From: Clostridia bacterium
GTDB taxonomy: Bacteria > Bacillota > Clostridia > Christensenellales > CAG-1252
DNA: 35,371 nt
Direction: 5' to 3'
Assembly: GCA_017463565.1 (NCBI GenBank)
Contig: JAFTOZ010000060.1
Location: forward strand, 1-35,371
The position numbers and the translations under genes were made by a program. This document shows, in pieces, positions 8,067 to 8,827 of this stretch. The notes under the pieces were generated by a model. It was not told the origin of the DNA and did not search any database. It saw only the letters and a list, made by a program, of their open reading frames with translations. Within the stretch, counting starts at the first letter, position 1. The number at the start of each line of letters is the position of its first letter.

Positions 8067-8149
8067 CGGTTTGGAGTATTGCTGACGATCTTACAGTTCC
8101 TATAATTTACGTGGAAGCGGACAAAGAGCAATACTATGCAAAAACATAA

Positions 8150-8296
8150 AAGAACACAACGTTTACCATTCCATTTAACCGCCAACAACTCGCCGACTTC
8201 CTGTCGGTCGATCGAAGCGCCCTGTCGAATGAACTCTGCAAGATGAGGGACGAAGGACTGTTGACTTTCCGCAAAAGCAATTTCCATCTGTTATAG
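8150..8296 (+). pseudogene. Remnant of a Crp/Fnr-family regulator (C-terminal HTH only)
   Basis: One plus-strand frame reads KNTTFTIPFNRQQLADFLSV (8150-8209), continues DRSALSNELCKMRDEGLLTF (8210-8269) and ends RKSNFHLL before a TAG at 8294-8296. This is the winged-HTH end of Crp/Fnr-type regulators, whose recognition helix typically reads VDRSALSxELxxM and which usually end soon after. A TAA at 8147-8149 closes the frame upstream, no start codon or ribosome site is present, and the expected cyclic-nucleotide-binding domain (about 150 residues) is absent. It is therefore a decayed fragment. It is too short to appear as an ordinary ORF, and the minus-strand ORFs across it are shadows. Confidence 0.8.
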
Positions 8297-8472: not shown

Positions 8473-8501
8473 TTGCCATGAATCTTTTTTCGTGCTACAA
8501 T
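8473..8501 (+). promoter_or_regulatory. Promoter of the structured ncRNA
   Basis: TTGCCA (8473-8478), 17 nt spacer, TACAAT (8496-8501). The predicted start at about 8508 coincides with the first base of the closing stem of the RNA, which supports both calls. Confidence 0.8.
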
Positions 8502-8507
8502 AAAAAT

Positions 8508-8702
8508 GCGAAACAAACTGAATAGAGCAAGGCATAGGTATGGTACAGTATGCCCTTTTTTGCAATTCCGCCGTTCTGTATTTTGTCAAAAATGCAGCTC
8601 CCCTTGGTAGAATTGCAGCTTGTGCTTGCTCTATGAAAGGTTTGTTTCGCGGCAATCGGAGTTGCGTTTTTATGCGTCAACTTCGGTTGGCGCATTTTTT
8701 TT
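8508..8702 (+). ncRNA. Structured non-coding RNA of unrecognised class
   Basis: The transcript predicted from the promoter folds back on itself. P1 is GCGAAACAAAC (8508-8518) with GTTTGTTTCGC (8640-8650). P2 is TAGAGCAAG (8523-8531) with CTTGCTCTA (8625-8633). P3 is the hairpin GCATA/TATGC (8532-8536/8549-8553). P4 is TGCAATTC/GAATTGCA (8561-8568/8610-8617). P5 is CTGTATTTT/AAAATGCAG (8576-8584/8589-8597) with one G-U pair. Unpaired CTCCCCTTGGTA (8598-8609) and CGCCGTT (8569-8575) face each other between P4 and P5. A short GCAA/TTGC hairpin plus TTTT follows near 8652-8671, then a strong terminator: a 10-bp stem ATGCGTCAAC/GTTGGCGCAT with a TTCG loop (8672-8695) and eight T. No coding frame crosses it on the plus strand. 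The long closing stem, bubble and upper stem recall 6S RNA in outline, but the asymmetric bubble and side hairpin do not fit well. SRP RNA, RNase P RNA and tmRNA signatures are absent. Confidence 0.75.
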
Positions 8703-8821: not shown

Positions 8822-8827
8822 TATAAT
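8822..8827 (+). promoter_or_regulatory. Probable -10 box of the HTH-lipoprotein operon
   Basis: TATAAT at 8822-8827, 40 nt before the start codon. No good -35 hexamer is found at 16-18 bp, so activator dependence is possible. Confidence 0.45.

Follow-up and report, generated by a model that had tools for sequence, protein, structure and literature searches.

In the antisense-RNA attenuators of pT181 and pIP501, the terminator forms because an RNA segment keeps the antiterminator from doing so. Attenuators of pT181 were used in PMC3753616, and mobile attenuators, which are borne on insertion sequences (IS) and have spread recently, were described by Naville and Gautheret (2010, PMC2965389). 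In PMC8040213, 3161 candidate RNAs are predicted in human microbiomes, with HTH-XRE as a frequent neighbour; an uncurated earlier prediction of the RNA family treated below may be contained among the candidate models of that work. No paper combining 'Christensenellales' and 'riboswitch' was returned by the literature search. The window (the whole stretch of DNA analysed, 35,371 nt from a Clostridia bacterium, contig JAFTOZ010000060.1) carries at 8508-8702 an RNA that, judged from its sequence and those of its relatives, is probably a leader that attenuates transcription in cis and represents a new RNA family (rough probability 0.83). Leaders with a terminator and an antiterminator are of a known kind; neither Rfam nor the literature searched describes the family itself, its self-complementary design of two segments (A and B, Table 1) or its occurrence before unrelated genes.

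The fold of 8508-8702 has an energy of -85.7 kcal/mol, as compared with a mean of -50.3 kcal/mol (sd 3.66) for dinucleotide-shuffled sequences (z = -9.67), and none of 200 shuffles folded equally well, which bears out the preliminary description of this stretch as a strongly structured RNA. The promoter -10 element is preceded by TG and ends at 8501, so that the start falls 7 nt further on, at 8508, where the closing stem P1 begins, just as had been proposed. P1 consists of 11 bp (8508-8518/8640-8650) and one additional G-U pair; the second 9-bp stem, the inner hairpins and the UUCG-capped terminator with its T-run were likewise all found again, whereas the competing antiterminator and the 14-bp complementarity of A and B had been missed. 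Between a tRNA-Ser gene and the leader, positions 8128-8296 (+) encode FTIPFNRQQLADFLSVDRSALSNELCKMRDEGLLTFRKSNFHLL followed by a stop (read by eye), probably a gene remnant, as the peptide resembles a Crp/Fnr regulator that lacks its N-terminal part and is reduced to the C-terminal helix-turn-helix.

Table 1. Features of the leader RNA and of the genes that follow it (window coordinates).
Feature	Position	Strand	Basis and remarks
Promoter	8473-8501	+	-35 TTGCCA 8473-8478, 17-nt spacer, extended -10 TACAAT 8496-8501
Whole leader RNA (probable attenuator), start through terminator T-run	8508-8702	+	fold; covariance model
P1 closing stem, 5' arm	8508-8519	+	pairs with 8639-8650; fold, covariation
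P1 closing stem, 3' arm	8639-8650	+	fold, covariation
P2, 5' arm	8523-8531	+	pairs with 8625-8633; sequence varies among homologues
P2, 3' arm	8625-8633	+	P2 of 9 bp; fold
Apical hairpin A CUGUAUUUUGUCAAAAAUGCAG	8576-8597	+	fold; equivalent hairpin covaries in homologues
Segment A AAAAAUGCAGCUCC	8588-8601	+	14-bp complement of segment B; conserved complementarity
Segment B GGAGUUGCGUUUUU (tail)	8658-8671	+	partner of A, or part of the antiterminator
Antiterminator, 5' arm CAAUCGGAGUUG	8653-8664	+	pairs with 8678-8689; fold, covariation
Antiterminator, 3' arm CAACUUCGGUUG	8678-8689	+	common to the terminator; fold, covariation
Intrinsic terminator AUGCGUCAAC-UUCG-GUUGGCGCAU and U-run	8672-8702	+	hairpin 8672-8695; covaries in homologues
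First gene of presumed target unit, 311 aa	8868-9803	+	HTH_3, zinc-ribbon-like CxxC motifs, transmembrane segments
Second gene, predicted lipoprotein, 612 aa	9822-11660	+	18 nt after the first; lipobox read by eye

Known RNA classes were searched for with cmscan against Rfam 15 (4227 families, including the T-box and known riboswitches). Only tRNAs were found in the window and nothing on 8508-8702; a permissive scan of the leader region gave matches at chance level only (ncS54, PCGEM1, PK-IAV, STnc300), and no family was matched by the homologues or divergent copies described below. The earlier description of the RNA as being of unknown class held at the gathering cut-offs and above chance. 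The loose fit to 6S RNA that had been considered was rejected: RF00013 was matched at neither strict nor permissive thresholds, and the genome's own 6S RNA lies elsewhere (G000:C36:4372-4562, 52 bits against a family cut-off of 46.4).

About a dozen copies, conserved mainly in the tail, were found by blastn in relatives, and a covariance model was built from 11 of these homologues. The model scores the window copy at 145 bits (8508-8701) and matches 91 of 396 genomes of the order (E<=0.01) and 86 of 391 genomes of the class (E<=1e-6), the latter distributed over many families. Deeper rescoring of ten genomes gave one copy for the window genome and up to 17 for another. Named leader-bearing records are mostly metagenome-assembled genomes (MAGs) of uncultured Clostridia from ruminant, deer and rabbit guts, and include a Candidatus Borkfalkia MAG and a Christensenella MAG. 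The homologues vary in length and content everywhere but in P1, A, B and the terminator, and no conserved unpaired core or pocket was seen across them. In an internal loop on the 5' side, P1 is followed by an AAUA motif in 84 of 167 main-type copies, where about 44 would be expected, and in 25 of 32 divergent ones; the motif might serve as a hinge or as a protein site. Tandem leaders, which have separate promoters and terminators and are in some cases just 80-100 nt apart, were observed at L084, L106, L119, L171, L193, L174 and L200. A drum RNA (RF02958, 57.8 bits) lies at 2831-2951 of L288, near a divergent leader copy. A viral origin was considered and rejected, exact matches to the tail motif being absent from viral contigs (0) and from plasmids; one phage-labelled record bears a leader copy.

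The placement of the leader relative to promoter and gene was evaluated with 167 distinct copies, the denominators varying with the available flank. In 146 of 162 copies, exactly 6 nt separate the -10 element from the base at which P1 begins, and an extended TG precedes the element in 143; with this gap so widely kept, the start site is a conserved feature. A Shine-Dalgarno sequence and an ORF on the same strand follow the terminator in 146 of 161 copies (median gap 21 nt), the remaining 15 having no directly following ORF and some of them being tandem leaders. When the distance from the terminator to the start codon was limited to 60 nt, 117 of 157 copies qualified, as opposed to 4 of 155 in the mirror test on the opposite flank. 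This one-sidedness argues that the RNA is a 5' leader attenuating transcription, and, as the gap is too short for a second promoter, the gene must be reached by read-through. The leader is thus found between promoter and gene, with an intrinsic terminator at its end. Of the preliminary reading as an independent RNA of unknown class, the separate promoter and the lack of an Rfam class stood and the independence did not, a gene lying closely 3' in the homologues; the suggestion that the RNA may regulate the adjacent unit was likewise supported. The window copy is atypical in that its first gene begins 166 nt past the terminator; a perfect -10-like TATAAT lies between them at 8822-8827, and the gene may have a second start or promoter of its own there.

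The two genes following the leader in the window probably form an operon, and this pair, an HTH/zinc-ribbon membrane protein and then a predicted lipoprotein, is in line with the targets of the family. The 146 downstream proteins fall into 92 unrelated clusters, 76 of which are singletons. Simple rules classified 49 of the proteins as lipoproteins and found CxxC pairs resembling zinc ribbons in 21, most of these with membrane segments; Pfam assigned LRR_5 (BspA) to 21 of 139 proteins, besides zinc ribbons, an EcoRI-type methylase, GIY-YIG and HTH_3, and PADLOC gave single defence-like members including UzuA, a type II methylase and PDC-S30. A constant linkage of the leader with the HTH gene was rejected, as homologues of this gene at 28-35% identity (L267-L269) have no leader upstream. 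Small FCGH(S/R)...GG(Y/M)GAFD proteins, judged by eye to be SLOG/YpsA-like, were met repeatedly behind leaders of different genomes (L174, L119, L181, L320), and two related 284-aa proteins that follow the leader at L082 and L092 resemble the GIY-YIG and UzuA (Uzume) matches (two members each). In an unverified phage-labelled faecal record (L276, MT835503.1), a leader at 338-532 stands before an EcoRI-like adenine methyltransferase and a DUF262/HNH-like protein (575-2829); a methylase of the same type follows the leader at L099 and L127, which suggests that the leader can control restriction-like units.

Three helices compete for shared bases: the terminator, the antiterminator (B:C) and A:B. 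The antiterminator is formed by CAAUCGGAGUU with GACUUCGGUUG (8653-8664/8678-8689 in the window), and A:B by AAAAAUGCAAAUUCC, which takes in the loop of the apical hairpin together with its 3' strand, with the tail segment GGAGUUUGCGUUUUU (14 bp in the window, 8588-8601/8658-8671). Antiterminator and terminator are mutually exclusive, as in an attenuator, and their pairing is conserved. The covariance search in relatives that had been proposed at the outset yielded homologues with covarying pairs: among 102 copies, two-sided changes occur at 9 of the 11 pairs of P1, at all 7 pairs of the equivalent of the apical hairpin, and at 22 pairs when these two and the antiterminator are taken together, with a covariation score of 0.304 against 0.138 in shuffles (0 of 500 as high). 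The terminator, which lies outside the structure of the model, scored 0.322 against 0.197, with 50 cells changed on both sides where 12 were expected. A:B, also outside the model's structure, is paired at 95.8% (28-58% when slid) and has 11 two-sided cells against 3.6 expected, an excess that is significant but modest and comes mainly from one column pair; in the first alignment of 11 sequences, A:B covariation did not rise above that of shuffles. Complementarity of A and B is kept in 197 of 197 copies, the copy's own B binding its own interior better than a shuffled B does. Divergent copies in which A and B have changed jointly, for example L308 (AAAAACGCACGCUUGG/CCAAGCUGCGUUUUU), L320 (UUCCCG/CGGGAA), L280 and L024, are stronger evidence for A:B than the cell excess of the large set.

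The energies are of a kind that suits a switch: the tail with antiterminator has a median of -17.9 kcal/mol, the terminator alone -13.9 kcal/mol, the A:B duplex -18.2 kcal/mol and the apical hairpin -5.1 kcal/mol, from which it follows that the antiterminator should win with B free and the terminator with B captured by A. As judged from the sequence, the mRNA starts on the first base of P1 and the gene lies downstream of the terminator. In the mechanism proposed, as long as A is kept in the apical hairpin, B would pair with the 5' arm of the terminator, the antiterminator would form and the gene would be read (ON); a signal that lets A capture B would allow the terminator to form and transcription to stop (OFF). 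We infer this assignment of ON and OFF to the A-free and A-captured states. The unit controlled in the window would be the HTH/zinc-ribbon membrane gene and probably also the lipoprotein gene.

How A reaches B bears on a serious rival to pairing in cis. A and B lie 45-56 nt apart in 80% of the main-type copies, the total and core lengths varying more, and pairing in cis is favoured because this spacing is held at about 50 nt. The rod would keep A and B up to about 50 bp apart, so that P1 and A:B can exist at once only by folding back or rearrangement, and it is by one of these routes that A would meet B in cis. The terminated leader might instead act as a trans-acting sRNA, its A pairing with B of nascent leaders of its own or sister copies and forcing termination in the manner of an antisense attenuator, so that the copies would make up a self-limiting network. 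The separation imposed by the rod would then present no difficulty, A and B are complementary in every copy, tandem copies occur, and several of the up to 17 copies per genome could cross-pair; in the 17-copy genome, own A:B pairs are only moderately better (mean -14.8 kcal/mol) than cross pairs (-12.1 kcal/mol). This reading is nevertheless judged quite unlikely, as the constrained spacing is needless for trans pairing, the window genome has a single copy, and private A/B pairs that match themselves alone occur in one genome (L304, L306, L308, L280).

A classical riboswitch for a small molecule or ion, with the arm of P1, P2 and apical hairpin as aptamer, would account for the leader position, the terminator/antiterminator switch and the many transcription units; it is considered unlikely, since the sequence is variable in length and content beyond P1, A, B and the terminator, no conserved unpaired pocket of the kind present in known aptamers is seen, and the targets fall into 92 unrelated clusters without a shared pathway. 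An sRNA that acts independently, whether of 6S type or not, and only happens to adjoin genes is very unlikely: the one-sided close gene placement and the separate 6S RNA of the genome, with no RF00013 match at permissive thresholds, speak against it, even though a promoter and terminator of its own and a strong rod-like fold are what such an RNA would have. Equally improbable is the end of a mobile element (compare PMC2965389), a cassette of promoter and terminator exapted before random genes without regulation; the unrelated downstream clusters, the patchy distribution, the tandem copies and the copy in a phage-labelled record would suit it, but in many families of Clostridia the three competing helices have stayed complementary although their sequences have changed, and no transposase family is among the top Pfam hits of the 139 downstream proteins.

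The cis-acting leader appears to be among the more abundant undescribed regulatory RNA families of uncultured gut Clostridia, being matched in about one-fifth of the genomes sampled and often present in many copies. That one switch precedes about 90 unrelated clusters of genes implies that these belong to a regulon with a shared signal, which is traced by its RNA and not by its genes. More tentatively, and with some doubt, the leaders may constitute a new class of self-recognising switches. Each would bear its own antisense A at the tip of a long rod, with a private target B adjacent to the terminator, and a genome would contain up to 17 or more such attenuators working in parallel with some cross-talk, which would respond to one common signal and control surface lipoproteins together with accessory or defence-like genes. 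The three competing helices offer precise point mutations by which these proposals can be tested.

Compared with known systems, the leader shares with 6S RNA (RF00013) its own promoter, a length of about 190 nt and a long rod with a terminal closing stem, and differs in having a 3' gene and a terminator with an antiterminator, next to a separate 6S RNA in the genome. Like the leader hairpins of LoaP, it is a structured leader that would govern terminator read-through in Firmicutes, but LoaP exceeded the curated cut-off in 0 of 13 leader-bearing genomes tested. LoaP was accordingly rejected as trans factor, these genomes showing NusG-level scores below the cut-off only and the sole LoaP above it occurring in a genome without a leader match. 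With the expression platforms of riboswitches and T-boxes, it has in common the 5' leader position, the opposition of terminator and antiterminator and the gene directly 3'; it lacks an Rfam match, the T-box antiterminator consensus, a specifier and a conserved aptamer-like unpaired core, and a single leader family precedes about 90 unrelated gene clusters. As in the pT181/pIP501 attenuators, a blocking RNA segment would prevent the antiterminator from forming, but the blocking A of the leader lies upstream on the same strand and in the same RNA, whereas theirs is supplied by a convergent antisense transcript. Among published ideas, that of the mobile attenuators (PMC2965389), in which related terminators also stand before unrelated genes, comes nearest; the leader differs from these in having a promoter, a 195-nt fold and three competing helices that have been conserved, with covariation, across many families.
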